Virus record (IMG/VR): IMGVR_UViG_3300023179_007410
Coordinates: 1 to 39,664 of that record
Origin: a virus
Direction: 5' to 3' (one strand)
DNA length: 39,664 bases
Numbering within the stretch: the first letter of the stretch is position 1; every line of letters begins with the position of its first letter. Under the pieces are notes generated by a model that had not been told where the DNA came from, did no database searches, and saw nothing but the letters and a program-made list of their open reading frames with translations. Of this stretch, positions 4,201 to 27,027 are shown piece after piece. Both the position numbers and the translations under genes were made by a program.

Positions 4201-4388
4201 AATAAGAATTGATTTGGATTTGTATTAGGTTCAGTATTAAACGCATAAGTACTTAAATATACTCTATATGATTCTATATTTTCAGTATTTTCTATTGGTT
4301 TAATATTAATTTGAAAACCTTTACTATTTTTAGTTATATCAACTACATCTATTGTCGCGTTTGGTAATTTAGATGGATAATTATTCAT
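1275..4388 (-). CDS. Large tail protein with fibronectin-like segments, downstream of gpJ homologue
   Basis: This 1037-aa protein has no signal peptide or membrane segment and I do not recognise a specific family. It is Asn/Tyr/Ser-rich and predicted mainly beta. The N-terminal about 100 residues (ending ...HYLTVFCKNIFGYES) look like a fibronectin type III or Ig-type sandwich, and a second such stretch (YYVVVEAVDTEGNSS) lies around residue 350. The C-terminal third has several Cys residues, including a TCCVDL box. It starts on an ATG sharing one base with the stop of the gpJ-like gene (TAATG at 4388-4390), so it is translationally coupled as the last gene of the tail-tip operon. That position suggests a tail-tip accessory or receptor-contact protein. 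Its 3' end meets the tape-measure gene tail to tail. Confidence 0.6.
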   Translation of the reverse strand: MNNYPSKLPNATIDVVDITKNSKGFQINIKPIENTENIESYRVYLSTYAFNTEPNTNPNQFLLKEVPYSTNEEYFYHIPKTTGIHYLTVFCKNIFGYESTGVFFSGIIPSQYPIREVKLQNLNYYTEQILLEDNINYSGGMSNISINNKNDITVSTPYSYIAWQQDLTSDTIENIQKFSPENIEYDFSKYFKDSAINFNVRVIPAINEVSGILTDNTVLRNKSNDIYNTTLPCLTPQISFSAPDLKIEKINLTSAGDDISSTEKVPEIISSDNRYFLFDYGLNANGYISKNTTYTEGIAPNNTLVFNPEVQNTGDFVNQLINLTGSGNSSPTPYVQIAQAGHYNNYYVVVEAVDTEGNSSAGGNINTYDSQRYTNLDGYKVLKINHNRIPQSKVLKIFKNYYREDNNKIVFEIKNSLPIHAGIDSVILFPTKYRENINTDKQTDYYDKFIFLRNLKDIDFLNVNPNYKIESMDDQNNLHYKITCRLSSDSLLLNDNIFSVKLYYLNSLEASALDLYLQNVGYTNDAVFTYLNTTDLIDKYITLNKFIKDNKNYTSTIAASYQGLVYFFTPESYPFIAWPNETYRNNYLNKEGARMLDFERDGVASGPQFFDYFPRAQAEINGTFPNENKYKTTYRCLDSYKYSSTSFDFGLEPEDVPSNGINDSPSYLGAYDPGNIGDQESPEAIDFKYVKNDLKYFAAKNIYMVKLLSVGIQKEDAYAIVEFVLDIPDAQDFIIQGISGTDTILEKGIKEINGTNHHYFIAKFVSSCGIDTDPILNGEKVDVKNIIDSKKMISFLVYPTKFKIIEDPADVPFFGDFYLLANNINNPEFTLLKICPFTLLNNKSDCVKTCCVDLNDTINLRSQFKQFFVISRYVGDQIGNNYPYGKICSTDSYIFGSRSWRYSAFDYTTSNINMYYKKPTNPVNTLNLGLLCYPEHNVGIYKISIYIKQIDDINSIQWMGSDVIDTYTFEEIVKSYPIYLSIPDFDFSNRANAYQRILKDYSQWIKDGKTFAVRFVVIDNSGDSISQTFTFENDENC

Positions 4389-7300
4389 TATATATCATCT
4401 CCTAATGCGTATTTATTTTCATCATATTGTAACGCAGTAATTTTATATCTATATTCTTCTTGCTCTTCAATATCTAATACTCTAAATTTTTGAGTTTTAT
4501 CCATATAAGGCTCTAAAGCTGCTCCTGGATAAATATCGGTAGTATTTTTTCCAGATATACTTGGACTTTTTGTATAATCATATTTATTTGGGTCAAGCTC
4601 AATTGTCCAAACCGTATTTTGCAATAACGTATGTTCTTTATCGTCTAAACTGGCTCCACCAAAACTTAATTTTGTATAACCATAATAATTATTTCCAGTT
4701 TCTAAAGTGGCATAAATACCAAAACTATTTGTAGAATCAGAAGCGCCATCTATATTATAATTAACAGTTTGAATTTGTTTTCTTCTAATTAATGAAGTAT
4801 TAATTCCTGATTGTAAACCTTCAGTATTTATAAATTCTATATTATTGATTATTTGACCATTAAATACGTTGACTTGTTGAGTCTCTTGAAGATCTGTCAA
4901 ATAATTTCCTGTTGGTGTTCCCAACTCTATATTTCCTGCAGGAGTTAAAATATTGAATTTACATCCACTAATTACTGGAAGATATCCAGAAATATCTTCA
5001 TATTTAACATCTAAAATTGCATAATTTTTATTAAGTTCATATGTTCTTCCACCGAGTATTTTATTTTGTCTATTTTGATCTTGAACTAATATAATATCTC
5101 CTGGCTTCAAATACATTGCTGGAAGACTTGTTTCAAAACTAATTAATTCTGATTCTGAATTTTCTGATAATAAAGTCCATTTGCCTAATCTTTCAGCTTG
5201 ACCTTCGCTAGTTGAACCAAATGCACTTACTTCCGTTTCTCTAATTCCATATTTGATTATACCTTCTCTATTTTCCACATATTTTACAGCAGGTTTAAAG
5301 AAATTATCTTTATCATTATATCTAACTAATGCAATATTTCTTCTAACTCTTCTACTTGTATTACTATATGTAAATTCTCCATCTTTTACATTGCTATTAT
5401 TAAATATATATATTGGATCTTTTGGTCTATCTTGAGAAGTCATAATAAGTCCAGCACTATAATAAACTAGACCTCTAAATATACTTGCCATATCATTAAC
5501 TACTTTATAAGCGTCTTCTCTAGTAGCAATTAAAAGATTGCAAGTGAATCTTGGTTCTAGACCACCTTTACCGTCATTAACTAATTCATCACAATATTTA
5601 CTAATTTCATATAATGTCCATTTATCTGTATATCTTGGATCAACATATTTACCTAATCCGTATCTTCTATTTGTTAGAATATCATAAAAACACCATGCAG
5701 GATTATCTGTCCATGCTAATTTAAATGAACCATCCCAAATTCCATCATATGTTTTAGACCAAGGATTATAATTTGTTGGAACTTTAACTTTCAATAATCT
5801 AGCATCATAAGAACGCTGTGGAATACTTGTGAAAAATCTTGCATCAAATGTTGTCATAATACCAGCTGTATGTGGTATAGCTAACAGCTCGTTATAGACT
5901 TCAGTTACTGAATCTATTCCAGCTCTTAAAACTATATTACTATCAATTGGTTCGATATAAGTCGGTTCAATTTCTATTTCCCATCCAATAGTTTTTTCAT
6001 TAGATATAGCGTTTAAACCTGTCCATTCAAAAGTTTCAATATATGGCCCTGCATTTAATCTTCCTGTAACAATTAATGGCAAAGATGTTTTCCCTCCACT
6101 TCCTACTACTATAGGAGTAGTAACTAATCCATCTGATCCACTTCCTTTATCTATTCTTTTTAAACTGATATTAAAAGTTACGCTTTGTCTATCGATTCTA
6201 CCTCCAACGCTGTTTTCTGCTGCTTGATCTGCTGAATCCCAAATTGTTAAATCAACAATTTGTTTAAATAAACTAATTACTTTAATATGTAATCTAAGAC
6301 CATATAAATCTTTAGTCAAAACATTAATAGATTTTTTATATGTTTTTTCTGTTCCATCTTGAAACTTTCTTTTACCAAATAATTTTATTCCTGCAGTTTT
6401 TGTACTAGTTAATCTTCTTGGTAATTTTGCTGCATCTGTTAAAACATTTCCATTTTGATCCCTAATTTCTAAATAATTAACGTATATGCCGTTGCCTGCT
6501 TTTTTAGAGTAAAACTCCTCTTCTAAATTAATATTTTTTAATTCATTTAAGTTAGCATGTCTTGGAGAAGAATCTGCGTTATCAAATTTTAATTTAATAA
6601 AATCAAAATTTACACTGCCAGGATTTGGATATGTATCATCTGCAAGAGCAGTTTCATTCCAATATATTGATCTTATAAAAGAATTTTGTCCTGGATATCT
6701 TATTATATCAACTCCATTTTTATATCCTATATCTCCTTTTTGATAACCTGGTCTTGGTTTTATTTCATAATCAACAATACCTTCTATAGGGCCTTCTCCT
6801 AATATATCTAAAAGAGATATATTGGTAAGAGATGTAATTCCTATATCTTTTGATTCAGAAAGGTTATTTCTATATTGATATAGATAATTATTATAAGTAA
6901 CACTATTACCTACTTGAGATATAACTCCTCCTGTACAATTTCCAGGTATAGTATTACTAGTTAAAGCTGTTGCCGCCCAATAAGTATAATTTCCTTTTCG
7001 CGGTCTAGAAGAGCCTCCTCTATTATGCACAAAAATATCTTCAATGATATAAGTATGATATTTTTCTACTTCTATATTATAAACTTCTTCAAAATGACTT
7101 TGTTTTATATCTAAAATTTTAATTTTTTTATTATCAGAAGATATTAAATATTCTCCTATTTTAAAATCTTCTAAAAATCTAAATTCATTATTTTCGTCTA
7201 AAAATGGATGACTTAATGTTGTTTCTAAAATAATTCCATTTTCAAGGGTCACTTTGTATATAGGTTGAGGCTCTTTATTATGATCAAAAATTTCAATAAT

Positions 7301-10300
7301 TTTACTTATTTTTATATTTTTTTCTTCATCAAATGCGTATACTTCATCTCCAACTTTTAATTCGTTAATATTTATTTTACCTTTAGGTGTATTTACTCTC
7401 ATACTTTTAGTAAAACATGTCCCAGTATAAGAACAATTATATACATCTCCAGCTCTAGGAGTATAGGTTCCTAAAAATAAAGTAAAAAGATTAGTAACTC
7501 TATTAAAAGCACAAGTATCTACAATTTTAATAAAGAAATTATATACCCCATTTGCTGCAGGAATTCCGTTAGGATATTTTTTTAATCCAGTTTTTGGAAG
7601 AGTTTGATTTGCAAATATTGAACCATTTTCTATAGCATTTACATATGAAGGTCCTGGATAATATTGAGTAGAAGTTTTATTTTTTGTTATTGTTACAACG
7701 CTATACCCAGGTGCAGTTTGAGTCCCTAAAGGTCCTTCAGTAAAAACAATTTGATGTTCAAGATCTGGTCCAGGATTAAATGATATAGCTGGCATATTTT
7801 CTGCTGGATTTGCACTCCAACTAGATTTAATACATGACGAAGCAGTAACTGCAACTTCTTGAGTATAAGGAGTAGATACCGCACCTTTACTAATACTATT
7901 TTCTGGAGCGTAACAAGAATTACCAAACGCGTCTATTTGAGATGATGAAGCAGGAGCAATATCGTAAGATCCCTCTATATTTACTGGATAATTATCTTGT
8001 GTATTAATATCAATTATATAAACCCAGAAATTAGTTTCTGCATCTAAAGAATCTCTTGGAGTAAATTTTATATCTCCGATAGTTTCTCCATTAGGAGCTA
8101 TAATATATGAAGATACCGACGCGATGCTTCCTATAGATATTCCAGAAGTTTTTGTTTCAAGATCAACAGTTACAGATGTATTATTTGGAATATCAACTAT
8201 GCGATACGTTCCATTTTGCAAATTACTACTTGATCTTTTGGCTGGAACACAAAGGTGTGTACCACTTTGTTTTTGTCCTTTTGTGCTAATTCTTCCTGCA
8301 TTACCACCTGCAATTGCATTAGCTTCTGTATCGTAAATATTAAAAGTATTTCTTGTTATATTTCCAGCATAATATACTGTATTAGCAGTAATTGATGTTG
8401 GAAGTTTTCCATTTGTTGTAAATTTTATAGCTTGTCCTTTAGAAAATCCATGTGAACTTAAAGTTACAACTGCAGGAGATGCTAAAGATATTACAACTTG
8501 TCTTATAGAAGAATTTGGAATTCCAGTAAAATCCCAACCACTGCTAAACCATACATCTAAATATGAATTTAATATATAATTATGCGTTTGCGTAAGCGTA
8601 AAAGTAAGATATCTACTATTTGCAGTATATGAATATGCTCCGTTAAAAGACGCAGGAAAATCATTAGCTTTAATATGTGTGTATTCACTTTTATTAATTT
8701 TTTTAAAATAAACTACACTATTTGCAGAATTATTAAGAGATGTAGGATTTTTTGACTGCAATCTCATTGTTATTTTATTATTTTTTAATGCAGAATAACT
8801 ATTTTGTAATATTTTAATTTCAGAAGGAAATGTTCCACCAGAAGGTTGATTATTCTCTTCATATGGATTAAAATTAAAACTTACAATTCCTGTTGCGCTA
8901 CCTCTTGCATTTGATATTCCTACTAATGAGGTAAAAGTTCCTGCATGTTTTGGAGTGCCTGTAATCTTTCCATTTGAACTATCAAAAGCTAAACCTTCTG
9001 GCAAATTACTAATTCCTAAAATTTTTCCTTTAGAATTTGATATTGTTGAGTTAAAAGAGCTACCCACTGTTCCATTTAAAACAGTGCTTACGGCTATAGT
9101 TGGAAAAGATTCTGCAGGATTTAAATTTCCTTTTACAACATTTAAATTAAAAATTATTTTATTTCCTGCGTCAGCATCTTTTTTTGATCTAATTTCAAAT
9201 GTCCATGTCTCCGTTTTTATTTCTGCCTCAATTTGAGTAGTAATAGTTCCAGATAAAGTTTTAGTATCGCTATTCCAAGTTAAACCTAAATTTTTTAAAA
9301 CATCTAATTGATTTCCATTCATTATAACATCATAAGCAGATTGTGGATAATTTGTTGCAAACTGATAATTAAAAGAATTTCCTCTGAATACTGTTGCTGT
9401 TGCTGGACTTGTGACATATATTGGATCTCTTCCTTCTGAATCAAGACTTTTAATAGTCAAACTTTTTTTACTCGTATAAGTTGTGTTTGTGCCAGTTAAA
9501 GACGAAATAATTAATCCTGTATAATATCCAACATAATTAGATTTATTTTTTAATAAATAATTTGTTGTATCATTTGGTTGAAGATAATCAAAAGTGTATA
9601 AATCTACTGTACCAGAAGCAGTTAAAGGTCCAGGAATTTGTATTTTAACTGCAGTCGGTGTTGATTCAATTATGGTATAAATTCCATTTTTTATTTGATT
9701 TCCAGTTTTAAACTTACAAAATATTTTATCATATAATTTAAATGTAGAATTAGTTACTGTGATTGTTACAGTTTCTATAGTTTGAGTATAATTTTGATTT
9801 GCAAAATATGAAGAAAATCTTAATTTATCTATAGAATCTGAATCTGCAAATTTACCAAAATCTGTATAATTTATAGCTGACGGAATTTGATCTGTCGTAA
9901 TTTCAAAAAGAAATGATTCATTTATTTTAGTTGTTGCCATTCCTTGACTGGTTATTGCTGGAGGAGTCAAAGATGCTCTAGGAGTATTATAAGCTATCAT
10001 TCCATCGACAAAACTCCAAATAAACCAAAATCCGCGATCTTTATCTATACCTCTAATTGATATAGGATTTCTTAATGAAGACGGCAACCCTGTACTATCA
10101 GATCTAGATGTAAAAATAGGGTTATATGCATCTAACAAATCAGATACATTTGCTAACATATCTGTTGTAGGATTACCATCACTATCATATGGTTGACCTA
10201 CGTCATTATATGTATAAACTCCATCAAATGAATATCCATTTTTGCCTCTATATGCAACGCCCTCAATATATTTATTTGGATCACAATCTTTACATTTTTT

Positions 10301-10306
10301 AGCCAT
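4388..10306 (-). CDS. gpJ-like central tail tip / host-specificity protein with fibre-like N-terminus and embedded Hint domain
   Basis: At 1972 residues from the ATG at 10306 this is much longer than lambda gpJ (about 1130). Three parts are visible. Residues 1-963 are fibre-like, including putative-Ig (He_PIG type) modules such as LPEGLAFDSSNGKITGTP near residue 450. Residues 964-1095 form a Hint domain (separate entry). From about residue 1165 the gpJ core begins with LLDILGEGPIEGIVDYEI, a hallmark of the family, followed by its usual hub domains and Trp-rich region (AWTDNPAWCFYDILTNRRYG). gpJ homologues form the trimeric hub or tip that contacts the receptor. A GTG at 10315 would add three residues but lies too close to the AGGAGG motif. 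The ATG lies 11 bases after it and directly follows the gpI stop. The N-terminal fibre extension before the hub is unusual. Confidence 0.85.
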   Translation of the reverse strand: MAKKCKDCDPNKYIEGVAYRGKNGYSFDGVYTYNDVGQPYDSDGNPTTDMLANVSDLLDAYNPIFTSRSDSTGLPSSLRNPISIRGIDKDRGFWFIWSFVDGMIAYNTPRASLTPPAITSQGMATTKINESFLFEITTDQIPSAINYTDFGKFADSDSIDKLRFSSYFANQNYTQTIETVTITVTNSTFKLYDKIFCKFKTGNQIKNGIYTIIESTPTAVKIQIPGPLTASGTVDLYTFDYLQPNDTTNYLLKNKSNYVGYYTGLIISSLTGTNTTYTSKKSLTIKSLDSEGRDPIYVTSPATATVFRGNSFNYQFATNYPQSAYDVIMNGNQLDVLKNLGLTWNSDTKTLSGTITTQIEAEIKTETWTFEIRSKKDADAGNKIIFNLNVVKGNLNPAESFPTIAVSTVLNGTVGSSFNSTISNSKGKILGISNLPEGLAFDSSNGKITGTPKHAGTFTSLVGISNARGSATGIVSFNFNPYEENNQPSGGTFPSEIKILQNSYSALKNNKITMRLQSKNPTSLNNSANSVVYFKKINKSEYTHIKANDFPASFNGAYSYTANSRYLTFTLTQTHNYILNSYLDVWFSSGWDFTGIPNSSIRQVVISLASPAVVTLSSHGFSKGQAIKFTTNGKLPTSITANTVYYAGNITRNTFNIYDTEANAIAGGNAGRISTKGQKQSGTHLCVPAKRSSSNLQNGTYRIVDIPNNTSVTVDLETKTSGISIGSIASVSSYIIAPNGETIGDIKFTPRDSLDAETNFWVYIIDINTQDNYPVNIEGSYDIAPASSSQIDAFGNSCYAPENSISKGAVSTPYTQEVAVTASSCIKSSWSANPAENMPAISFNPGPDLEHQIVFTEGPLGTQTAPGYSVVTITKNKTSTQYYPGPSYVNAIENGSIFANQTLPKTGLKKYPNGIPAANGVYNFFIKIVDTCAFNRVTNLFTLFLGTYTPRAGDVYNCSYTGTCFTKSMRVNTPKGKININELKVGDEVYAFDEEKNIKISKIIEIFDHNKEPQPIYKVTLENGIILETTLSHPFLDENNEFRFLEDFKIGEYLISSDNKKIKILDIKQSHFEEVYNIEVEKYHTYIIEDIFVHNRGGSSRPRKGNYTYWAATALTSNTIPGNCTGGVISQVGNSVTYNNYLYQYRNNLSESKDIGITSLTNISLLDILGEGPIEGIVDYEIKPRPGYQKGDIGYKNGVDIIRYPGQNSFIRSIYWNETALADDTYPNPGSVNFDFIKLKFDNADSSPRHANLNELKNINLEEEFYSKKAGNGIYVNYLEIRDQNGNVLTDAAKLPRRLTSTKTAGIKLFGKRKFQDGTEKTYKKSINVLTKDLYGLRLHIKVISLFKQIVDLTIWDSADQAAENSVGGRIDRQSVTFNISLKRIDKGSGSDGLVTTPIVVGSGGKTSLPLIVTGRLNAGPYIETFEWTGLNAISNEKTIGWEIEIEPTYIEPIDSNIVLRAGIDSVTEVYNELLAIPHTAGIMTTFDARFFTSIPQRSYDARLLKVKVPTNYNPWSKTYDGIWDGSFKLAWTDNPAWCFYDILTNRRYGLGKYVDPRYTDKWTLYEISKYCDELVNDGKGGLEPRFTCNLLIATREDAYKVVNDMASIFRGLVYYSAGLIMTSQDRPKDPIYIFNNSNVKDGEFTYSNTSRRVRRNIALVRYNDKDNFFKPAVKYVENREGIIKYGIRETEVSAFGSTSEGQAERLGKWTLLSENSESELISFETSLPAMYLKPGDIILVQDQNRQNKILGGRTYELNKNYAILDVKYEDISGYLPVISGCKFNILTPAGNIELGTPTGNYLTDLQETQQVNVFNGQIINNIEFINTEGLQSGINTSLIRRKQIQTVNYNIDGASDSTNSFGIYATLETGNNYYGYTKLSFGGASLDDKEHTLLQNTVWTIELDPNKYDYTKSPSISGKNTTDIYPGAALEPYMDKTQKFRVLDIEEQEEYRYKITALQYDENKYALGDDI
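7022..7417 (-). other. Hint (bacterial intein-like) domain inside the gpJ homologue
   Basis: This 132-residue domain runs from Cys964 (CFTKSMRVNTPKGK) to Asn1095 (ending YHTYIIEDIFVHN). The intein blocks are recognisable: block A with the leading Cys, followed by the 'LKVGDEVYAFD' box; block B with TLSH (Thr1030, His1033); and blocks F/G with HTYI and the terminal His-Asn pair. The next residue is Arg1096, not Cys, Ser or Thr, so a classical transesterification to a downstream nucleophile is not available. Length, lack of a homing endonuclease and the non-nucleophilic +1 residue fit the A-type bacterial intein-like (BIL) class, which is known for protein cleavage and low-level splicing. Activity here is inferred. 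Confidence 0.85.
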
Positions 10307-10307
10307 A

Positions 10308-11615
10308 TTATCCACCGCCTCCTTGCAATGAAGATTGAGATAAAGAGTTTCCTTGGAAATCTTGAATGTCTATAGCATTTCCATAATGATTAAAATAATA
10401 ACTTTTTGTAGGATAATTTTCTGGCCCTGCATCTGTTGGTGGTTTTCCATCTGATCCATATTTATTTTCTCTAGATTGTATTCTATATAATTGATCATAA
10501 GAACTAAAAACTTGATGACTACCTATAATTAATCTTCCATATCCAACTGGAATTGGTCCGCCTTCACCAACAGTATTAACTGGTCCATTAAATGTATAAG
10601 ATGGTTCTCCACCAGTTTCTGGGGCAGCTTCAAAATCTGCGCTAGGATTTGCAATTGCTTGTGGACTAACCATTGGTGGCGGTTTCATTAACAACATTGA
10701 TACGCCCAAAGCTAAAAGACCTAATATTGCTGGTGCTAATGCGGCAATTGATAAACCTAAAACTCCTACTCCAAATGGAATAAGTAATATTGCTAAAAAT
10801 ATCGCAAAAATACCTTTAACACTACTCATACCTCCTTTTCCTCCACCACCTCCTTTTCCTCCACCACCATTATGGACAAGCATATCATTTGCTATATATG
10901 TATGGTTTTTTTGAACATGAAAATTATATGTTTTTTCGCAACCATCTTCTTCTATATTTTCTATGGGTAATAAATCACCGCTTTCATGTATTAAAACATC
11001 TCCAATTTTAAAATCACCTAATGGAGCAAATCTATTATATTCATTTAAAAACCAATGATTTTTTGTTGCCCTAATAATTTTATTTCCCCAAAGTGTTACT
11101 TTAATTATCTCAGTTTCATTATGAGAGAAAGTATCTTCAACGATATCAATATGTTTATTTTTATCTTTATCAAATGATATAATTTTTTCTCCTGTTTGTA
11201 TATCTTCTATATTTTTATATCCTTCTGGTGTTAAAATTTTTGTTCCAGCTGGAAAACAACTACTTCCTCCACCGCCTCCACCACCAGCACCTTCTAAAAT
11301 TGGTACAACATCAATGCTTTTTAAATTATTTCCAAAATCCATGCAAAATTCAGAATTATTAAGCATTTCAAAATGTTCTTTTTTTACGTCTTTATTTTGT
11401 TCTGGTAGATTTTGAGGTTTTGGCACCCATATAGGCCTATTATTAACTAGTATTTCATACTTGAGATTATTTTCTGCATGACGAATTAATGTTTTTGTTA
11501 ATTTTTGACTATTAGCTTCTATTGCTCTAAAAGCTTCGGCAACGCTATGGACATGAAAGTTCCAATCTGATCCAACTTCTTCTCCTAAAGATCCATGTAG
11601 TTTAATATTGACCAT
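10308..11615 (-). CDS. gpI-like tail assembly protein with embedded Hint domain
   Basis: Residues 1-65 match the beta-grasp start of lambda gpI-type tail assembly proteins (IKLHGSLGEEVG, then SVAEAFRAIEAN and ILVNNRPI). The C-terminal signature PIPVGYGRLIIGS is at residues 355-366. Between them lie a run of glycines, a 130-residue Hint domain (Cys120-Asn249), a second Gly/Lys-rich linker and a hydrophobic segment of about 45 residues (267-311) that could be two membrane passes. Without the Hint domain it would be about 305 residues, compared with about 220 for lambda gpI. gpI acts in tail-tip assembly and is thought to work with gpK and gpJ. The gene starts on an ATG 6 bases after gpK, and its stop almost abuts the gpJ start. 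Confidence 0.83.
   Translation of the reverse strand: MVNIKLHGSLGEEVGSDWNFHVHSVAEAFRAIEANSQKLTKTLIRHAENNLKYEILVNNRPIWVPKPQNLPEQNKDVKKEHFEMLNNSEFCMDFGNNLKSIDVVPILEGAGGGGGGGSSCFPAGTKILTPEGYKNIEDIQTGEKIISFDKDKNKHIDIVEDTFSHNETEIIKVTLWGNKIIRATKNHWFLNEYNRFAPLGDFKIGDVLIHESGDLLPIENIEEDGCEKTYNFHVQKNHTYIANDMLVHNGGGGKGGGGGKGGMSSVKGIFAIFLAILLIPFGVGVLGLSIAALAPAILGLLALGVSMLLMKPPPMVSPQAIANPSADFEAAPETGGEPSYTFNGPVNTVGEGGPIPVGYGRLIIGSHQVFSSYDQLYRIQSRENKYGSDGKPPTDAGPENYPTKSYYFNHYGNAIDIQDFQGNSLSQSSLQGGGG
10869..11258 (-). other. Hint (bacterial intein-like) domain inside the gpI homologue
   Basis: This 130-residue domain begins at Cys120 (CFPAGTKILTPEGYKNIEDI) and ends at His248-Asn249 (KNHTYIANDMLVHN). Block A with the initial Cys, a TKNH block B (Thr184, His187), the HTY box and the terminal His-Asn are all present. 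The +1 residue is Gly250. It is flanked by poly-glycine on both sides: seven or more Gly then Ser-Ser before, and GGGGKGGGGGK after. There is no endonuclease insert. It is clearly related to, but far diverged from, the Hint domain in the neighbouring gpJ gene. A-type BIL behaviour (cleavage or inefficient splicing) is inferred from the +1 Gly. Confidence 0.87.
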
Positions 11616-11621
11616 ATGCCT

Positions 11622-12365
11622 TTAACCTCTATACCTTAATACATAACTAGTATGTTTTTTATAGAAATTATCGTATATATTTACACAAGAAAAAGAATTT
11701 AAAGGTTGATGCAATATCATGTTATCTCCTAGATATGCTGCTGCATGAGTAGGATAATCTTCGCATACGGCTGGAAATATCATCATAATTCCATCATCTT
11801 TTTCAAGTTTAACATTTTTATCTAATTTAACAAAACCATTCTCTAAAAAATGTTTTTCATATAATGCTCCTATTTCTTTAATATCTTTAGGATAAGCAGT
11901 ATATTTTGGAAAATTTAAAAATACATTTCTTTCTCTTTGAGCATAGTCTTTCATAAGAGTAAAACAATCAGAAATCCCAAGAATAAATGGTCTTCCTATA
12001 TAATGATTTTTTTCAGTATTAGGTATATAAAAATTAAAATAATCTTTATTTAAATTGTAAAGAATATAATGAATATTATATTTATTGCTATTCTCTTTGT
12101 CTATTTCACTAAAATTAATATTATCATTTGTATGAGAATGATAACAAGCTATAATTTGGCCAAGATAACTGCAATTTAAATATTCTTGTGGTGATATACT
12201 AAAAGAATTAACTTTATTTTTTGCTGTATTTTTACAAGCAAAAATTTCAAATTTTAAAGTCTGTTTGTCGACATATATAAATCCACAAGATTCATATGGA
12301 GCAAATTTTTTTGCTTCAAATTTAATTTTTTCTTTTAATTGCAAATTAAATTCAAAATTATTCAT
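11622..12365 (-). CDS. gpK-like tail tip peptidase: JAMM/MPN + NlpC/P60
   Basis: This two-domain protein of 247 residues compares with about 200 for lambda gpK. The N-terminal half is a JAMM/MPN metalloprotease with Glu25 and the complete zinc motif H-x-H-x7-S-x2-D (His76, His78, Ser86, Asp89). The C-terminal half is an NlpC/P60 cysteine peptidase with the catalytic Cys134 in SDCFTL and His207 in PTHAAAYLGDNMILHQ. In related phages the first domain is linked to tail-protein maturation and the second to peptidoglycan cleavage during DNA entry. The ATG overlaps the stop of the gpL-like gene by one base (TAATG at 12363-12367), so the two are coupled. Both active sites look intact. Confidence 0.9.
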   Translation of the reverse strand: MNNFEFNLQLKEKIKFEAKKFAPYESCGFIYVDKQTLKFEIFACKNTAKNKVNSFSISPQEYLNCSYLGQIIACYHSHTNDNINFSEIDKENSNKYNIHYILYNLNKDYFNFYIPNTEKNHYIGRPFILGISDCFTLMKDYAQRERNVFLNFPKYTAYPKDIKEIGALYEKHFLENGFVKLDKNVKLEKDDGIMMIFPAVCEDYPTHAAAYLGDNMILHQPLNSFSCVNIYDNFYKKHTSYVLRYRG

Positions 12366-17957: not shown

Positions 17958-19625
17958 ATGGGTCTTGTCATTTCATCTGGAATATTTAGATTTATCCCGC
18001 CAAATCCTTTTATTGGCGGAATATCTAGTGCTACAGGACATATCAATGAGTCTATACAACTTTTTGGTAGTGATTTAGACTATATTGATCAAGTTTCTTT
18101 AGCTGATACATTATGTGAATTTAATCTTATAGACTTAAATACTTTGAACGTAATAATTCCTGCAAATGCAGAATCAGGATTAATGATTGCTACATCTGAA
18201 GAGTTTACAGTTAGTGGTCAACCAATAGAATTTTATCCAATTCCTAATATTGAATTTTTTGATCCAAAAAATTCTGCTTCTGGAGAATGGATTTATTTTA
18301 ATGGTAAAGCTATGAGTAGTGCTACAGGATGTTATTTTTACGCACAACCTTTATTAGATGATATAGAGTATATATTTACTGGAGATAATAGACTTTTTAA
18401 TATAAATAATTCAGAAACTAACAGAAAAAATTCTGTTTTAGTTTACCTTCAAAATATAAATATAAATAATTCTACTGGTAACTATAAAATAAAAAATATA
18501 TCTGATTATACAAATACTAGCGGTAGAGGATTAGAAATACAAATTGATCCTATGCAAAATAGATATTATGAAGAGCATATATTTTCTTTCCCAATTATAA
18601 CTAATGATAATTTTCAAACATTTTTTAAACAAATATCTACGGGATATAACTCTTATCAAATAGATTTACCTTTACCATTTACAAATACAGATTACTCTGT
18701 TTTTTATACTTATCCAATTACTGGTTCTGATATGTATTATCCATATATATCTGGAAAAACTATAAATAATTTTTATATTAATTTTGATAAAATACTAAAT
18801 GAAACTGGAAACATTAATTTTTGGGCAATTTCAAATTCTGGTGTTAATTTTGATAATGGATCATATCAATCTACAGGAATATCTATACCAACTGGAATAA
18901 GTTCTACAGGAATAAGATTGATAACTAACAAAAACTATCCACCATTTTTAATTGGAGGAGTAGAGTATTCTGGAGCAGGAACTGCTTACAAAGTTAATAT
19001 ATCTAACTTAAATAAAGATAATTTTAAAATCAATATCCCAGAAAATACAGGAAATTATAATCTTAAATTCAATTATTGTACAGTTTTAAATAATCAAATT
19101 GATTACGATTTATTTCGTTATATTGGTCAATCTGGATCTTATAAAAAAATATATTTATACAGCGGTGATGCAAATACATTTTTAGAAAAAATTCCTGGTT
19201 TAGATTATCAAATATTAAATAAAAATTTATCAAAGGTTCGAGTTCCTTATACAGAATTTTATATTAATGGACAAATAGGTTTAATTGGTCCAAAAGATAT
19301 TAATGTAGAAACAGATAACACATTCTTTGAAAGTCCTCTGCCTACAAGTGTTTCTCCACCTTTTGGAACAAGAGGTACAAAATTAATTATTTCTGGCAAA
19401 AGTTTTAAAAAAGTAATTTTAAATGATGGAACGGGTGATTACAATTATATATCTGTAAAATTTAGATATGCAGACGATATTTATATGCAAAATAATAATA
19501 ATTTTTCTACAGATTTTCTTCTGATAGACACTAATACTTTAAGTGGATTAGTACCATTGCAAAATTTTCCATCTGGAAAATATGCAATTCAAATGATGGC
19601 TGAAGATGGGAGTCTATTCGAATGA
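17958..19625 (+). CDS. Tail fibre-like protein with IPT/TIG domains
   Basis: This 555-aa protein starts within an IPT/TIG-type domain (residues about 10-75, with GHINESIQLFGSDLDYIDQV) and contains at least two more such repeats, including FGTRGTKLIISGKSFKKV near residue 470. The centre is Asn/Tyr/Ser-rich beta structure with repeated STG/ISGSG turns. No signal peptide or catalytic motif is seen. The last codons overlap the next gene (ATGA at 19622-19625), so translation is coupled. It is probably a tail-surface or fibre component that polymerises or stacks with its neighbours. The exact family is unknown. Confidence 0.6.
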   Translation: MGLVISSGIFRFIPPNPFIGGISSATGHINESIQLFGSDLDYIDQVSLADTLCEFNLIDLNTLNVIIPANAESGLMIATSEEFTVSGQPIEFYPIPNIEFFDPKNSASGEWIYFNGKAMSSATGCYFYAQPLLDDIEYIFTGDNRLFNINNSETNRKNSVLVYLQNININNSTGNYKIKNISDYTNTSGRGLEIQIDPMQNRYYEEHIFSFPIITNDNFQTFFKQISTGYNSYQIDLPLPFTNTDYSVFYTYPITGSDMYYPYISGKTINNFYINFDKILNETGNINFWAISNSGVNFDNGSYQSTGISIPTGISSTGIRLITNKNYPPFLIGGVEYSGAGTAYKVNISNLNKDNFKINIPENTGNYNLKFNYCTVLNNQIDYDLFRYIGQSGSYKKIYLYSGDANTFLEKIPGLDYQILNKNLSKVRVPYTEFYINGQIGLIGPKDINVETDNTFFESPLPTSVSPPFGTRGTKLIISGKSFKKVILNDGTGDYNYISVKFRYADDIYMQNNNNFSTDFLLIDTNTLSGLVPLQNFPSGKYAIQMMAEDGSLFE

Positions 19626-22600
19626 GTACTTTTTTTGAATTAAAACAAGCAGAGCCATTAATTCTTTCTTCGAATTTATTAGGAATCACTGGAGAAAAAG
19701 TAATTATTTCTGGAGAAAGTTTTAAGAAAAATATTCTTCAAGTTTCTGGTCAAGATATCTATAATAATAATTCATTTTTTAATGTTTATGGTTTAGATAA
19801 ACAAGATGCTTCAGGAATAAATAATGCAATATATGAAGATGCTATTGAATTTACAATACCAACTGGAATTTCTGCATCTAAATATAATTTATATCTTTTT
19901 AATGATTATGGAAAATCTTCTAATTTTGCTAATCTTCATGTAATAGGAAATCCAACAATTTCTGGAATAGATGCAATTTCTGGATTCCCATTTCAATACA
20001 TAAGAGTAAGTGGTACTAATTTTTATCCTTCTCCTAGTCTTAAATTATTCAACGATAATGGAGTTCAAGTTTCTCCTACTTATCAAGATAGTGGATTTTA
20101 TAGAGTATCAAATGTAGAAATAGTAGAATTTGGAACAGGATATAATGTAGATGAAGTTATATATTTTTCTGGTATTAAAACTTTTGATTCTAATTCTGCA
20201 GCAAGATTTGGCATTACTACAACTGGTATACAAGGATCTTTAGCAAGTATTGATATACTATATTCCGGAGTTATTACAGTTCCAGAATTATCTACTGGTA
20301 TAGAATTAAAAGGTATAAATGGTCGTGGAGCAAAAGTAAATATTGAATATGAAAAATATTTAAGCACAGGACAAATAGAATTTTTAGAATTCCAAATGCC
20401 TTTAAATATCCGAGGAAATTTATCTGGTATAGTAGAAAATATAAGATATAAATCTGTTGAGCAGAATATCTTTACGGGACTTAGAGTTATCGGTATTCCA
20501 TATTTAGATAATTTCAATCCAAAAAGTGGCATAGTTGATACTACATCAATTTTGCTTTCTGGAGATAATTTAAGTTTTGTAGATAAAGTATATTTAGATA
20601 ATGTAGATATTTCTTTTACAAAAATTGATAATACTGGAATCGCTTTTACTATTCCTAATTATTCATCATCAAATAAAATATTCATTTCTGGTAAATATGG
20701 TTCTACAGAAAGTTTAAGTTTACTTAACATTTTATATCCGTCTGTTATTGCAAGCGGATTTAATCCTAATGATATATTATTAGGCACAGGAGCAAACATT
20801 TATATATCTGGTAAATATTTACAAAGAATAAAATATATAAATATTGGTCAGCAAAATCTTTTAAGGAATAAAATATCTATTACTAATACAGGAACAATCG
20901 CGGCATTTTCATTGCCAGATAATTATACAACAACAGAACTAAGTATATTTTCTGAAGATTTTCCAAATTCTGGCACATTAATTTCTTCTCCAACTACAAA
21001 TAATCAGCTTATAGCTTCAACAAAATTAAATGTTTCTAATGTAAATATCAAATATCCATCTGATATTCAAGCTGCAAAATATCTAGATGAAATAGAGATA
21101 TATACTCCTAGTGGTACTTCTGGTGATTATGGAAATCTTTCAAATTCAGAAGTATACTTTTTATCTGTTACAGGTTTACCAAATATTACTGATGCATATT
21201 CGATTAGCGGTATTAAACAAGTCAATACTCCTACTGGATTAAGGATAAGAATTCCTCGTGAAGTAAAAAATCCTCAAACTAGAATTAAAATAAAAAGAAA
21301 TAAGTTTAATGATGAATATATTTTACCTTCTGATAAAAGCATAGATATTTTACCTACTATACATGCTGTCACTCCTTCTAATACTCTTTATAATAGTTTA
21401 GGATATATTACTATTTCGGGAATTAATGCTTCTAGTGTTAATCAAATTTACTTTAGTGGTTATACTGGAACAAGAAATATTTTAGGCTCTAAAGATTTAA
21501 CATATTTTCCATTAGAAATTGTTGATAAAAATATTATACAAATTACTGGAGGAGATAATACTACTGGTTATACAGTAATTGAAGCTAAACTTGGTGGAGA
21601 CATAACAGGGAGTGGAGAGTTATTTTTATTTAATAATTATTATGATACTGGTATAGGATATGAAAATGCCATAATAACTCAAAATCGCAAAATCAAAGTA
21701 AATAATATAAGTGGTTATCGCCCTCCAAATTCTGATATATTTACAAGTCCAGGAATTATAAATAGCCCATTAGACCAAGCATTTTTTTATCAAATACAAA
21801 CAAATTCAAGAGCTACTAAATTTGAATTTTCTCCAACTACAATATCTGGAGTAGGAGATGCAGAATTTCCACCTGGAATTAGTTCTGTATTAAATTCTTC
21901 AAATCAAATTTATGGAGTTCCTACAAGTGGTGGAAATTATTATATAAAAATTAGAGCTTTAGATGGAGATAAACCAAACGAAGGCATGATTTTACAAGCT
22001 AATTTTGGTACATCAGGAAGATCATTAGCTGGGCCAGGAATAGTTTATAGAGGAGATTGGGATCCAAGCGTTGGATATGTTGGAGATAATCTCAGAAGAG
22101 ATGTGGTAAAATATTCAAATGGAGCAAATTATTGGTATGCTGCAACCACAAATATTAATTCAACTCCAGGACCAACAAATCCAAATTGGATTGCATTTTC
22201 AAATGAATTTAGTGCAACCGCTACTCAAATATTATTAGCAGAACAATCAAATATTTTTTCTTTAGTTAATATCGGAAGACTAGGCGTTCCTAGCGGAATA
22301 ATTAAAAGTGTTAATGATATAGATTCTAATTTGGGAAGTGGATTCTTTTTAGGATATGATAATTCTTATAATCCAGGAAAACCAAAGTTTAGAGTTGGAA
22401 ATCAAGATAATTATATAAAATTTAATGGTCTTGGATTAGATATTGTTGGCCCATTATCTGGTATTCTCACTACATCAAGAGATATTACTAATGCAAATAA
22501 TATAGTTGATTCAAATTATTCTGTTGCTTTAGGAATTAACAATCGTATCTCATCAGATTGTGATAATGTATTTATTTTCGGAACAAGTAATCTAACAACA

Positions 22601-23287
22601 GGAGCTCGAAGATCTTCTATTGTCGCTGGAATAAATAATATAATAACTGGATTCTCAACGTTTGTTTCCGAAGATTCAAATATAGTTGGTGGTCAAGGAA
22701 ATAAAGTCATAGGATCTTTTTGTAATATTGGAGGAGGTAAAGCAAATGTTGTAGACGCTTTATCTACTGGACTTGCTGGAATAGGTAATCAAATATTTTA
22801 TACATCTTTTACTGGTCAAAATGAGACGGTTATTGATTATCCTCTATCTTTATATACAAATCAGCTTGCTATTTTACATAATATTAGAAAAACTGGTGAA
22901 CAAGATTTTTACGATATTAAATTCGATAATCTTACGTCTACAAGTTACGATGTTCAATTTGCAAATATTTTAGATGCTGAAGATCTTACTATGGATTTAT
23001 TTAGTTGGGTTAGTATTTTATCTGAAAATTTATATTCTGGAGCTTTTTCAGAAGGAAATAAAGCTTGTCAATTTAAAACATTTAAAACAGGTATAGCTTC
23101 TGGAACAAAAGATTTTAGAGTTAATTTTAATACTCCATTTACTGATACAGATAATATTATTGTTCTAAACTCTATACAATCTAAAGATTTTTATAAAAAT
23201 GAAATAACTGGAGTTAATCGTTCTGGTTTCAATATAATATTCTCAGAAAATTTACAAGAAAATATTGTGTGCCATTTTTTTGCATGA
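19622..23287 (+). CDS. Large tail fibre protein, N-terminal part (IPT/TIG repeats, YadA-like head), ends at in-frame TGA
   Basis: This 1221-residue reading frame carries several IPT/TIG-type repeats in its first about 650 residues (LLGITGEKVIISGESFKK, SGIVDTTSILLSGDNL, and others). A He_PIG-like module follows near residue 740. A CBM5/12-like module lies at 22045-22206 (GDWDPSVGY ... PNWIAFS). From about residue 960 there are YadA-head-like repeats of the pattern GG-x-N-x-I-x-G (for example NIVGGQGNKVIGSFCNIGGG). The frame stops at TGA (23285-23287), but coding sequence continues in the same frame into the next ORF, which has the same repeat types. The two are probably one 1808-codon fibre gene. 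The start overlaps the previous stop. Confidence 0.7.
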   Translation: MSTFFELKQAEPLILSSNLLGITGEKVIISGESFKKNILQVSGQDIYNNNSFFNVYGLDKQDASGINNAIYEDAIEFTIPTGISASKYNLYLFNDYGKSSNFANLHVIGNPTISGIDAISGFPFQYIRVSGTNFYPSPSLKLFNDNGVQVSPTYQDSGFYRVSNVEIVEFGTGYNVDEVIYFSGIKTFDSNSAARFGITTTGIQGSLASIDILYSGVITVPELSTGIELKGINGRGAKVNIEYEKYLSTGQIEFLEFQMPLNIRGNLSGIVENIRYKSVEQNIFTGLRVIGIPYLDNFNPKSGIVDTTSILLSGDNLSFVDKVYLDNVDISFTKIDNTGIAFTIPNYSSSNKIFISGKYGSTESLSLLNILYPSVIASGFNPNDILLGTGANIYISGKYLQRIKYINIGQQNLLRNKISITNTGTIAAFSLPDNYTTTELSIFSEDFPNSGTLISSPTTNNQLIASTKLNVSNVNIKYPSDIQAAKYLDEIEIYTPSGTSGDYGNLSNSEVYFLSVTGLPNITDAYSISGIKQVNTPTGLRIRIPREVKNPQTRIKIKRNKFNDEYILPSDKSIDILPTIHAVTPSNTLYNSLGYITISGINASSVNQIYFSGYTGTRNILGSKDLTYFPLEIVDKNIIQITGGDNTTGYTVIEAKLGGDITGSGELFLFNNYYDTGIGYENAIITQNRKIKVNNISGYRPPNSDIFTSPGIINSPLDQAFFYQIQTNSRATKFEFSPTTISGVGDAEFPPGISSVLNSSNQIYGVPTSGGNYYIKIRALDGDKPNEGMILQANFGTSGRSLAGPGIVYRGDWDPSVGYVGDNLRRDVVKYSNGANYWYAATTNINSTPGPTNPNWIAFSNEFSATATQILLAEQSNIFSLVNIGRLGVPSGIIKSVNDIDSNLGSGFFLGYDNSYNPGKPKFRVGNQDNYIKFNGLGLDIVGPLSGILTTSRDITNANNIVDSNYSVALGINNRISSDCDNVFIFGTSNLTTGARRSSIVAGINNIITGFSTFVSEDSNIVGGQGNKVIGSFCNIGGGKANVVDALSTGLAGIGNQIFYTSFTGQNETVIDYPLSLYTNQLAILHNIRKTGEQDFYDIKFDNLTSTSYDVQFANILDAEDLTMDLFSWVSILSENLYSGAFSEGNKACQFKTFKTGIASGTKDFRVNFNTPFTDTDNIIVLNSIQSKDFYKNEITGVNRSGFNIIFSENLQENIVCHFFA
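22045..22206 (+). other. CBM5/12-like module in the fibre
   Basis: A segment of about 54 residues has the spacing YRGDW-x-PSVGY, then DVVKYSNGANYWYAA, then TPGPTNPNWIAFS. This is the usual order of a small carbohydrate-binding (CBM5/12 or chitin-binding-like) fold: W, 'Y-x-x-GD', 'V-x-Y-x-G-x-x-Y', 'P-x-x-x-x-x-W'. Related-looking modules occur in the gpM-like and gpL-like proteins. Sugar binding is inferred. Confidence 0.5.
23285..23287 (+). other. In-frame TGA interrupting the terminal fibre gene
   Basis: The codon TGA lies between HFFA and NQGYFTG, and the 26 codons from there to the next ATG at 23366 are open in the same frame. The residues just before it (FNIIFSENLQENIVCHFFA) fit a module repeated downstream (for example FSIRLSKNLSTGEALKINYLA). 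This indicates that the stop interrupts a continuous protein. TGA is a genuine stop elsewhere in the window. Confidence 0.7.
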
Positions 23288-23365
23288 AATCAAGGATATT
23301 TCACTGGTACTAATGAAAATAGCGGAAAGATACTTGAAATTGGTACTATAAAGCCTTTTGCTAAT

Positions 23366-25048
23366 ATGGTATTTGGCACCGGAGTTAATTTTGATATTCC
23401 TATGGATCGTTCAACAATTACGTTTCAAAATGTATATAGACCAGATAGTGATATACTTTATATTGCTAAATCTAGAGAAACTGCACAAAATATATTAAAA
23501 ATAAAATTAAATGATAGTGTTGATCCTATTAACGAATATATTTTACTTGATGCTATAAGCTATACAGGTAGAATTTTGCAAAATAATTTACAAATTTATA
23601 CAACGGGTCTTGCTTCTGGAGCTAATTCTTACACTATTAATTTGTTATCTGGAGGAATGACAAACTATATTCCAATTATTGATGAAATTATTTCTGGAGA
23701 TAATTTTTATCCTTATTCTACATCAGATCATACATCATCTAGTTTTAAGATAAACTTTGGAGATAGTCTAAAAGAAGATATTTCTTTTAACATCGGAGTT
23801 TATAGATCTGGAAAATATCCATTTGATTCTGGAAATCATTTTGCTTCTTCTCAAATAATATCAGGCACTAATAGAGTATTTGATATACCATTTATATCAG
23901 GATTCACTAGTAAACCAAAAATATTATTTAATCTAGAAAATATAAATAGCAATAATTACTATATTACAAATCTTGATGATATTACAAAAACAGGATTTTC
24001 AATAAGATTATCTAAAAACTTAAGTACAGGCGAAGCTTTAAAAATAAATTATTTAGCTGTAGAAGGAACTGGATACCAAAGCTATAATGCAGTCAATAAA
24101 TTTTTAGGATATGAGACTTTTGAATTATCTAATGATATTATAATTAATACTCAAAATTCAGCTAGCAATGAAGTGAAAGTCTTTGGTAGAGCTACTTCTA
24201 ATAATAATTTATATTATCATATACTTACTCACTCAGATCGTTCTAGATTTGATATAAAAATTTCAGATAAAATTAAAGGGCAAGAATTATTAGATCTAAA
24301 CTATGATTATATTATAACAGATTTAACAAGAGATTTAGCTCTTACTAGAAATCTTCTTGGAGAAAGTGTATATGGTAGATTAGCAGGTTTTGGATTTGAT
24401 GACGTTGGAAGCTCTACTATTGGTGGTGGAACAGGAAATTATATTAGAGGTCTTGTATCAGTCATAGGAGGCGGTGTAAAAAATACTATTTTTGGAGATT
24501 ATAATGTTATTCCTGGTGGACGTTCTAATGTTATTGCTGATTACGTTAGTGATGTAGAAGCTCCTAAAACTGCTTTCTGCGCTGTTCTTGCTGGTAATTT
24601 AAATACAATTACTGGAAGTGTGCAAAATGCAGTTATTGTAGGAGGTGAAAGAAATTATATTTTAAATACAGATCGTTCTGTTACAAATGAAAGCCTTGGT
24701 TCTGCAATTCTCGGCGGTAAATCAAATATTATTTCTGGTTCATATTCTGCTATTGTTGGAGGTAGTGATAATACAATTAGAGGCTCATATAGTTATGGAA
24801 TGGGTCGAGGAATTACTATATCAAATAGTGGAGCTTTAGTTCTTTCTGATGGATCACTCGATTCTAAACGAAGCCTTGGTGATAATAGCTTAACTATGCA
24901 TTTTTCTAGTGGTATTTATATAACTGGTAATTCTGTTGGTAAATCTCCTATTATTTTAGATCCTGATGCTTTACCAACAAGTAGTTTAGGCTTACCAAGA
25001 GGCGCTATTTATAGCGCTAATGGTGTTTTAAAAGTGCATTTATTATAA
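23366..25048 (+). CDS. Large tail fibre protein, C-terminal part (YadA-like head repeats)
   Basis: This 560-residue frame has an ATG at 23366 without a convincing ribosome binding site. The coding frame extends 26 codons upstream to the TGA that ends the preceding fibre ORF, so independent initiation is doubtful. It contains repeated beta modules (SGFTSKPKILFNLENI and FSIRLSKNLSTGEALKINYLA types). From about residue 340 there are YadA/Hep-Hag-like repeats (STIGGGTGNYIRG, SVIGGGVKNTIFG, AILGGKSNIISG, AIVGGSDNTIRG). Such repeats form trimeric left-handed beta-rolls in adhesins and phage fibres. The end (LGLPRGAIYSANGVLKVHLL) resembles fibre tips. It terminates overlapping the convergent minus-strand gene. 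Confidence 0.7.
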   Translation: MVFGTGVNFDIPMDRSTITFQNVYRPDSDILYIAKSRETAQNILKIKLNDSVDPINEYILLDAISYTGRILQNNLQIYTTGLASGANSYTINLLSGGMTNYIPIIDEIISGDNFYPYSTSDHTSSSFKINFGDSLKEDISFNIGVYRSGKYPFDSGNHFASSQIISGTNRVFDIPFISGFTSKPKILFNLENINSNNYYITNLDDITKTGFSIRLSKNLSTGEALKINYLAVEGTGYQSYNAVNKFLGYETFELSNDIIINTQNSASNEVKVFGRATSNNNLYYHILTHSDRSRFDIKISDKIKGQELLDLNYDYIITDLTRDLALTRNLLGESVYGRLAGFGFDDVGSSTIGGGTGNYIRGLVSVIGGGVKNTIFGDYNVIPGGRSNVIADYVSDVEAPKTAFCAVLAGNLNTITGSVQNAVIVGGERNYILNTDRSVTNESLGSAILGGKSNIISGSYSAIVGGSDNTIRGSYSYGMGRGITISNSGALVLSDGSLDSKRSLGDNSLTMHFSSGIYITGNSVGKSPIILDPDALPTSSLGLPRGAIYSANGVLKVHLL

Positions 25049-25837: not shown

Positions 25838-25866
25838 ATGGTACTATATATTTAATCTTTTGTCAA
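25838..25866 (-). promoter_or_regulatory. Sigma70-like promoter (TTGACA - 17 - TACCAT), leaderless type
   Basis: TTGACA at 25866-25861 (inside the last codons of the preceding gene) is followed after 17 bases by TACCAT at 25843-25838. The ATG begins 6 bases later. The sequence AGATTAAATATATAGTA between the boxes closely resembles that of the promoter before the PHP gene. The -10 match is only moderate (4 of 6). Confidence 0.5.
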
Positions 25867-27027
25867 CTCAAATATATATAAATATTTTGATTCTTCCCAA
25901 AATTCTGGTTTATCTATTACTTTAATAGGTTTTCCCTCATAAGGAATATCTGCTTGATATGCTGATTTTGAATTATACATTTTACCATTACTAATAGTAA
26001 TTTTATTACATTTATAATATATATTACTTAAATCTTTATCTTTTAGGTCTTGTACATCATCTTTAGTTGATCTGTTTAATTTTAAAATTTGTCCATAATC
26101 CATATAATCTAATTTAATCTTTTTGACAAATTCTTCATCTTTATAAGTAGATAATACAAAAGACTTTCCAATTTTCCTCATAATTTTAACAAAATCTAAA
26201 TCATGATCTTCATCTAATTCATAAATAATTTGCGAAATATTATCTTTATATTTGGTTAGTATCTCTGGTTTAATTGATTTTTTGGTATATATTGAACAGT
26301 TATTTCTTTTTAATTGTTCAGCTAAAACTTCCTCATCAAATTCGTAATCCATACGCATAATCAAAGAATTAACATTTAATTTTGATATATCTGCTATAAC
26401 TGCATTTGGTACGGATTCTATTAAATTTCTTCCATAATCTTTGCCTATATTTAAGGTCTTTATATTTATTTTGCCTAAATTAAGTTGTTCTAAAATTGCA
26501 TTAGCAACATTTATTGGATCAATTTCATTAATAGTTTTTGGATTTTCTTGTGCAGAATAACTAGGTTTTCTATTTGTTTTATCTATTTCTAAAATTTTTA
26601 CATTATTTGATTTACTAAAATATGGACCGGCATTTTCTGGACGACTATTAGAATATAAAGCGGTAATTGGTTTATCGTAATTACTTGCTATATGAACACC
26701 AAAACTATCTGCTCCAAAATGAAGTATGCCTCTTTTTATTATATATGCTGCTTGATTAATTGTGGTTTTGCCTTGAAGATGATAGCAGTTATTTAAAGGC
26801 TTTTCATCTTTGCCCCCAATTTGAACAATATGAATATTTTCTTTTTTTAAGAATGGTGAAATTTGGTCTATTACTTCTTGCCAAAGATCGTAACTTTTTG
26901 CATCATATTTACTACAAGGCTGAAAAGATATATATTTATCAAATGGTAATGGACAATATTTTTCATAGATAAAAGGCTTATCTATTTTAAGACCACAATT
27001 TAAAGCGTATGTTTCAACTAGATGCAT
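25852..27027 (-). CDS. GT9-type glycosyltransferase C-terminal half plus unknown domain
   Basis: Residues 1-175 match the C-terminal Rossmann half of ADP-heptose-type (GT9) glycosyltransferases: IHIVQIGGKDEKP, then LQGKTTINQAAYIIKR, then the sugar-nucleotide site box GADSFGVHIAS and ITALYS. The N-terminal half of the same fold is at the end of the preceding gene (28933-27014), which overlaps this one by 14 bases in another frame. The beginning MHLVETYALNCGL fits the 'H-x-V-E' linker between the two halves. The last about 190 residues form an unknown alpha/beta domain. It is therefore either a separately translated half-enzyme or the continuation of a frameshifted GT4-GT9 fusion. No target for the sugar is evident. 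Confidence 0.7.
   Translation of the reverse strand: MHLVETYALNCGLKIDKPFIYEKYCPLPFDKYISFQPCSKYDAKSYDLWQEVIDQISPFLKKENIHIVQIGGKDEKPLNNCYHLQGKTTINQAAYIIKRGILHFGADSFGVHIASNYDKPITALYSNSRPENAGPYFSKSNNVKILEIDKTNRKPSYSAQENPKTINEIDPINVANAILEQLNLGKINIKTLNIGKDYGRNLIESVPNAVIADISKLNVNSLIMRMDYEFDEEVLAEQLKRNNCSIYTKKSIKPEILTKYKDNISQIIYELDEDHDLDFVKIMRKIGKSFVLSTYKDEEFVKKIKLDYMDYGQILKLNRSTKDDVQDLKDKDLSNIYYKCNKITISNGKMYNSKSAYQADIPYEGKPIKVIDKPEFWEESKYLYIFELTKD

Follow-up and report, generated by a model that had tools for sequence, protein, structure and literature searches.

Two adjacent genes of an uncultured phage, encoding the interacting tail-tip proteins gpI and gpJ, each contain a Hint domain of the A-type bacterial intein-like (BIL) kind. 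The phage is represented by IMG/VR record IMGVR_UViG_3300023179_007410, and the window analyzed here is that whole record of 39,664 bases. Both domains retain the catalytic residues of an autoprocessing Hint and lack the second nucleophile of an efficient intein. Judged from these features both look active, and we consider it fairly probable that the two precursors process themselves, with cleavage as the dominant outcome.

Results

On the minus strand, gpI (tail tip plug or tail assembly protein I) is encoded at 10308–11615 as a precursor of 435 residues (phrog_32, E = 3.5e-26; 23 full-length relatives), and the precursor of gpJ, the TipJ hub and central fiber, lies at 4388–10306 (phrog_2589, E = 4e-128; NF049904 lambda_TipJ, E = 8e-71). 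Hint domains of 130 and 132 residues lie at 10869–11258 in gpI (residues 120–249) and at 7022–7417 in gpJ, as the original prediction had stated; of the checks that it named, a hidden Markov model (HMM) search and structure prediction both confirm it. Pfam PT-HINT matches the gpI domain with E = 1.9e-15 and the gpJ domain with E = 8.8e-9, each exceeding the gathering score, and the NCBIfam models of intein N- and C-terminal regions, TIGR01445 and TIGR01443, exceed their cut-offs in both proteins. In AlphaFold2 models the block-mean predicted local distance difference test score (pLDDT) is ∼73–96 across both Hints and the strand order is Hint-like, whereas the whole-protein models (mean pLDDT 57 and 65) are of low quality elsewhere. 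When the models were compared with the PDB using Foldseek, the top 50 matches were all BIL, intein or Hedgehog autoprocessing domains. For gpI, the first match is 2LWY, an A-type BIL of C. thermocellum (target TM-score 0.85, 33% identity), and the second is BIL2 of Tetrahymena BUBL1; for gpJ, mini-inteins are mixed with BILs and 2LWY appears at rank 8 (target TM-score 0.88). A profile built from eleven tail-tip Hints also has 2LWY as its best PDB chain (E = 6e-23).

Each domain begins with Cys, contains the block B motif T-x-x-H (TKNH in gpI, TLSH in gpJ) and ends in VHN, the gpI residues being C120, T184, H187, H248 and N249. As predicted, the residue that follows the terminal His-Asn (+1) is Gly in gpI and Arg in gpJ. 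Both segments are Hint only, without a homing endonuclease. With the catalytic residues kept, the second nucleophile absent and 2LWY as the nearest solved relative by sequence, both segments belong to the A-type BIL Hints, the class first proposed. Their flanks had also been described as Gly-rich. This is correct for the two flanks in gpI, GAGGGGGGGSS^C ... HN^GGGGKGGGGGKGG (^ marks the Hint boundary; residues 109–119 at 11259–11291 and residues 250–262 at 10830–10868), but only partly so for gpJ, where the C-flank, HN^RGGSSRPRKG, is mildly Gly-rich and the N-flank, GDVYNCSYTGT^C, is not. A DNA word, GGTGGTGGAGG, is repeated on the two sides of the gpI Hint and could assist recombination events in which the domain is acquired or lost.

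The gpI Hint is located in the linker between an N-terminal ubiquitin-like (beta-grasp) domain (residues 1–106, 11298–11615; phrog_4946 match to residues 2–114, AlphaFold2 strands and helices) and the C-terminal part of hydrophobic helices and plug (residues 267–435, 10311–10817; phrog_32 match to residues 267–372). The phrog_32 tail assembly protein match is accordingly broken into two stretches, one on each side of the Hint. Isolate phages have a short linker at this position, IVPRVAGAKSGGVFQ in lambda (A95–G101) and APVIIGSKSGGLFQ in KS9, and the Gly-rich N-flank in the window matches lambda gpI AGAKSGG (95–101) in position. Lambda gpI makes up the plug of the tip lumen (PMC10721106) and in virions is ordered only from residue 101 onward (PMC11101478), this residue being the last Gly of the homologous linker. 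The N-terminal ubiquitin-like domain of this family, there termed TAPI, was described by Iyer et al. 2006, who predicted that the JAB domain of TAPK cleaves TAPI at the end of the ubiquitin-like domain (PMC1779556).

The gpJ Hint is located in the linker just upstream of the TipJ core. It is preceded by an N-terminal region of ∼960 residues with a putative immunoglobulin (Ig) domain (7418–10306; He_PIG match) that is absent from isolate gpJ proteins, and is followed by the TipJ part of the protein at 4388–7021 (core 4994–6838; PF13550, E = 4e-17; NF049904; alignment). The true start of gpJ is probably the ATG at 10306 (MAKKCKDCDPNK) and not the listed GTG at 10315, because relatives begin at the corresponding ATG with a conserved M(A/P)KKCKDCDPNK. 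The sequence behind the Hint, RGGSSRPRKG, is similar to that with which lambda gpJ opens (MGKGSSKGHTPR), and the lambda protein begins where a C-cleaved gpJ would begin. The pattern of the gpJ arm in Hint-bearing phages is M...(V/I)PxIxG(A/S/G)KGG^Hint^(K/G)GGGK. In Hint-less isolate gpJs the arm is unbroken and has a conserved motif at the insertion site (KS9 PKRISGAKGGGG, NF FKVFGSGGGGK), and this motif is reproduced when the flanks of one Hint-bearing locus, L379, are joined across the Hint (RRVPYIVGAKGG + KGGGKGGGTTHTPVEAEN). The gpI linker and the gpJ N-terminal arm, both of which host Hints, have a motif in common, P-x-(I/V)-x-G-(A/S)-K-x-G-G (window gpI 11259–11291; the arms of L379 and L348; isolates L257, L259 and L261).

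Among 41 distinct gpI and gpJ Hints, with a mean pairwise identity of 49% and a span of 30–100%, C1, T65, H68, H129 and N130 are invariant in 41/41. The +1 residue is Gly in 27, Lys in eight, Arg in five and Met in one of these, and Cys, Ser or Thr in none. A further 53 Hint open reading frames (ORFs), a set that includes near-copies and has 24 distinct arms, show Lys in 39 and Gly in 14, and again no Cys, Ser or Thr (0/53). Within the window's clade the +1 Gly and the Lys at +5 of the gpI C-flank (GGGGK) are invariant, and all 23 full-length gpI relatives in IMG/VR carry the Hint. The ratio of nonsynonymous to synonymous substitution rates (dN/dS) is 0.04–0.26 for the gpI Hint (eight pairs), like that of the flanking domains, and 0.08–0.38 for the gpJ Hints (eight pairs). 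By these sequence comparisons, tail-tip Hints are selected to retain the active site and not a splicing nucleophile.

Several other identities were rejected. Canonical class-1 splicing is ruled out by the +1 residue, a mobile full-length intein by the lack of an endonuclease, and a pretoxin (polymorphic-toxin) Hint by the lack of a toxin domain downstream, where the TipJ core or the gpI plug is found instead. A single-assembly artefact is excluded by the 25 contigs of the clade, and a chance motif by the Pfam, NCBIfam and profile matches.

The twin arrangement of gpI and gpJ Hints is restricted to the window's clade. Within it, the gpJ Hint is found in the window and in contigs L001, L003–L008, L016–L019, L021 and L023, while in L009, L010, L013–L015 and L022 gpJ is fused without a Hint through a different short linker. 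In L011 (7900–7960) two ORFs encode gpJ and the break between them falls exactly at the site of the Hint, which makes the locus a natural counterpart of the cleaved protein. GDVYSCRYT closes the first half; downstream come two stop codons in frame, AAGG and, at 7941, a new ATG. More distant relatives (L049, L052, L055, L110–L113) have no gpI Hint and a gpJ Hint 14–28 residues after the gpJ start, with matching empty gpJ sites in L053, L054 and L195. In three loci the gpJ N-terminus bears a tandem pair of Hints, separated by no more than GGGGKGG (L114:2377–5616, L115:7452–12494, L116:2647–5019).

A search of IMG/VR with the Hint alignment returned 330 matching stretches. The loci retained in addition to the known ones contain 53 Hint ORFs; in 50 of these the Hint is followed by the TipJ core, and the other three are short but have the same arm. 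These loci (L337–L389, for example L379:1375–6375 and L371:6950–10234) place gpJ-arm Hints in many unrelated uncultured phages, with Lys or Gly at +1 in all tabulated ORFs. The window's gpJ Hint represents a type found widely among uncultured phages; what sets the window's clade apart is limited to its gpI copy and to the domain of ∼960 residues that precedes the gpJ Hint. Searches by tblastn with gpI, the L055 gpJ start, the window gpJ Hint plus core and the L379 gpJ start found no tail-tip Hint among the matches listed from 50,697 isolate or deposited phage records. The Hint matches listed in isolate phages are in helicase, portal, thymidylate synthase or hypothetical genes; a hypothetical protein of a Proteus phage has no annotated tail context, and the neighbors of two Ruminococcus phage matches are all hypothetical. 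Bacterial genomes yielded two gpJ-arm Hints, both in Leptolyngbya (L263:2067–4760, L265:6944–9646) and one of them in a cultured strain, PCC 7375. These are probably prophage or phage-derived, and offer a possible laboratory model. A search of bacterial genomes with the gpI alignment, directed at a host or prophage of the window's clade, found no relative. Tandem BILs, two to four near the N-terminus with KG or KGGG linkers, were also observed in bacterial and archaeal proteins of unknown function (L266, L267, L270, L280, L284 and others; four in L280).

In a quick tree, the gpI Hints, the window-clade gpJ Hints and marine gpJ-arm Hints form one group (Shimodaira–Hasegawa approximate likelihood ratio test support 96) within the gpJ-arm Hints, and therefore the gpI copy most likely derived from a gpJ-arm Hint. 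The probable history is that the lineage first occupied the N-terminal arm of gpJ and that a copy entered gpI within the window's clade. On a tree of the gpJ core, likewise a quick one, the gpJ Hint must have been gained or lost six times or more.

The operon that contains both genes occupies the lower part of the window on the minus strand and is of lambda type, with genes for a Phage_min_tail (gpM-type) protein, gpL, gpK, gpI and gpJ. gpK (11622–12365) has JAB isopeptidase-like and NlpC/P60 domains (Prok-JAB, E = 5e-7; NLPC_P60, E = 5e-5), with the JAMM motif, HSH-x7-S-x-x-D, intact, and may be a partner of the gpI ubiquitin-like domain. In the more distant loci L055 and L113, gpL adjoins gpI with no gpK between them. 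Elsewhere, large proteins encoded at 19622–25048 on the plus strand, one with an H-type lectin domain, adjoin two glycosyltransferase genes on the minus strand (25852–28933); these are possible receptor-binding and surface-modification genes. When the remainder of the window was compared with isolate phages by megablast, no relative appeared.

Discussion

What we infer for the activity, products, timing and benefit of the two Hints is self-processing of both precursors, mainly by cleavage. After translation and folding, Cys1 would attack the preceding peptide bond to give a thioester, the terminal Asn would cyclize after His-Asn, and the Hint would leave its host protein. With Gly or Arg at +1 there would be no transesterification, and each host protein would end up mainly as two separate chains. 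Those of gpI would be the ubiquitin-like part and a plug part with GGGGKGGGGG at its N-terminus; those of gpJ would be the N-terminal part with the Ig domain and a lambda-like gpJ that begins RGGSSRPRKG. Partial re-ligation by aminolysis may occur, as in A-type BILs, for which cleavage products dominate with some splicing by aminolysis (PMC4031507). A single +1 substitution is reported to make BILs efficient splicers (PMC7664689). Cleavage is favored because the +1 nucleophile is absent in all homologues even though one substitution is reported to suffice, because the L011 gpJ is naturally split at the Hint site, and because lambda gpJ starts right behind the site and lambda gpI is ordered only behind it. 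The self-processing tail tip of the original prediction thus stands as the best reading of catalytic residues kept without a second nucleophile. Two considerations weigh against cleavage. In the clade of L055, L111 and L114, comparison of Hint-bearing with Hint-less proteins shows the short N-arm in front of the gpJ Hint to be no less conserved than the gpJ core (84% vs 75–78%). Such conservation would hardly be expected of an arm that is discarded and favors ligation there, and joined flanks would restore the canonical gpJ arm. In addition, the fused, Hint-less gpJs of the window's clade indicate that separating the gpJ halves is not essential.

Full splicing is a real but distinctly less favored alternative, under which the Hints would excise themselves and ligate their flanks by aminolysis, the free Gly, Lys or Arg N-terminus attacking the N-terminal thioester, and would restore the gpI linker and the gpJ arm as near-neutral passengers in a permissive Gly-rich site. 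There is precedent in the C. thermocellum A-type BIL and a trans-splicing variant, which ligate without a nucleophilic side chain (work cited in PMC4031507 and PMC7664689); however, published A-type BILs mainly cleave, and the +1 Cys, Ser or Thr needed for efficiency is never seen. The gpJ insertion site corresponds to a motif conserved in the Hint-less proteins of KS9 and NF and recovered from the joined L379 flanks, N-arms are conserved with and without the Hint, and the repeated gain and loss of the gpJ Hint would suit a passenger. Against this, the gpI Hint is kept in every full-length gpI of the clade, and the split gpJ gene of L011 works without ligation.

That the Hints are inactive folds retained solely as structural spacers is very improbable, given that few positions are invariant across the 41 divergent sequences and the catalytic residues belong to these, and that dN/dS is well below 1.

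Also very improbable is conjugation as in ciliate BUBL loci, in which the gpI Hint would join the ubiquitin-like domain through its C-terminal Gly to a lysine residue, such as the invariant Lys +5 or one in gpJ. This would give an isopeptide-linked tail tip with the gpK JAB as the matching isopeptidase. BUBL1 BIL2 (6Y75, 6TMM), second in the Foldseek ranking for gpI, is reported to join its flanking ubiquitin-like domain to Lys through an isopeptide bond (PMC8616854). At the gpI locus a ubiquitin-like domain with a C-terminal Gly directly precedes the Hint, the invariant GGGGK follows it, and the gpK JAMM motif is intact in 25/25 members of the clade. However, lysines are common in these arms even at gpJ Hints without a ubiquitin-like domain, and JAB is also frequent among Hint-free lambda-like phages. 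BUBL1 is also a eukaryotic polyubiquitin-like locus with ubiquitin-like domains on both sides of the BIL, whereas gpI has one on the N side only and the plug follows. The gpI–gpJ cross-linking raised in the original prediction is no more than conceivable, by analogy with BUBL1 BIL2, its one precedent; the ingredients are present at the locus. An extension of the same analogy, which we rate as very unlikely, would make gpI a stand-alone viral conjugation device in which the BIL transfers the ubiquitin-like domain through its C-terminal Gly to a tail-tip lysine (in its own GGGGK arm or in gpJ) with no E1 or E2 and the gpK JAB removes it, so that assembly would proceed under reversible covalent tagging.

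The domains can be compared with several known systems. Polymorphic-toxin PT-HINT, the best Pfam match, releases the C-terminal part after His-Asn; in the window that part is the gpI plug or the TipJ hub instead of a toxin domain. Class 1 inteins (gp41-1, DnaB, DnaE, RecA) have the fold and the first and third reaction steps in common with the window Hints, which differ in lacking the +1 Cys, Ser or Thr and an endonuclease (also lacking in mini-inteins) and in not being in replication genes. A-type BILs such as 2LWY (Amitai 2003, Dassa 2004 and Aranko 2013, as cited in PMC4031507 and PMC7664689) have in common with them the Hint fold, Cys1, T-x-x-H and the His-Asn end, and neither has a +1 nucleophile or an endonuclease. 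Published accounts of BILs, however, place them in variable regions of bacterial proteins that are not conserved (PMC7765530), whereas here the hosts are conserved phage tail-tip structural proteins entered at a conserved Gly motif. The gpI–gpK module of lambda and T1 (TAPI ubiquitin-like, TAPK JAB plus NlpC; PMC1779556) has the same genes in the same order as the window, and JAB is predicted to process TAPI in the very Gly linker that holds the gpI Hint in the window. Lambda-like isolates examined have no Hint, whereas the window gpI linker carries its own autoprocessing domain and JAB is retained.

We found no description of Hint or BIL domains in gpI or gpJ in the open-access literature (subscription journals and preprints being outside this scope). 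The domain type is known, and what looks new is its setting: conserved tail-tip proteins, a fixed Gly motif, gpI and gpJ twins and, in one group, tandem copies. The set provides many natural A-type BILs with Gly or Lys at +1, including tandem pairs, and is useful for establishing when BILs cleave and when they ligate. If the Hints are active, many uncultured phages would build the tail tip from self-processing precursors, and the roles of the gpI ubiquitin-like part and the gpK JAB part, as well as the reason for the conserved Gly-rich N-terminal arm of gpJ, would become testable.

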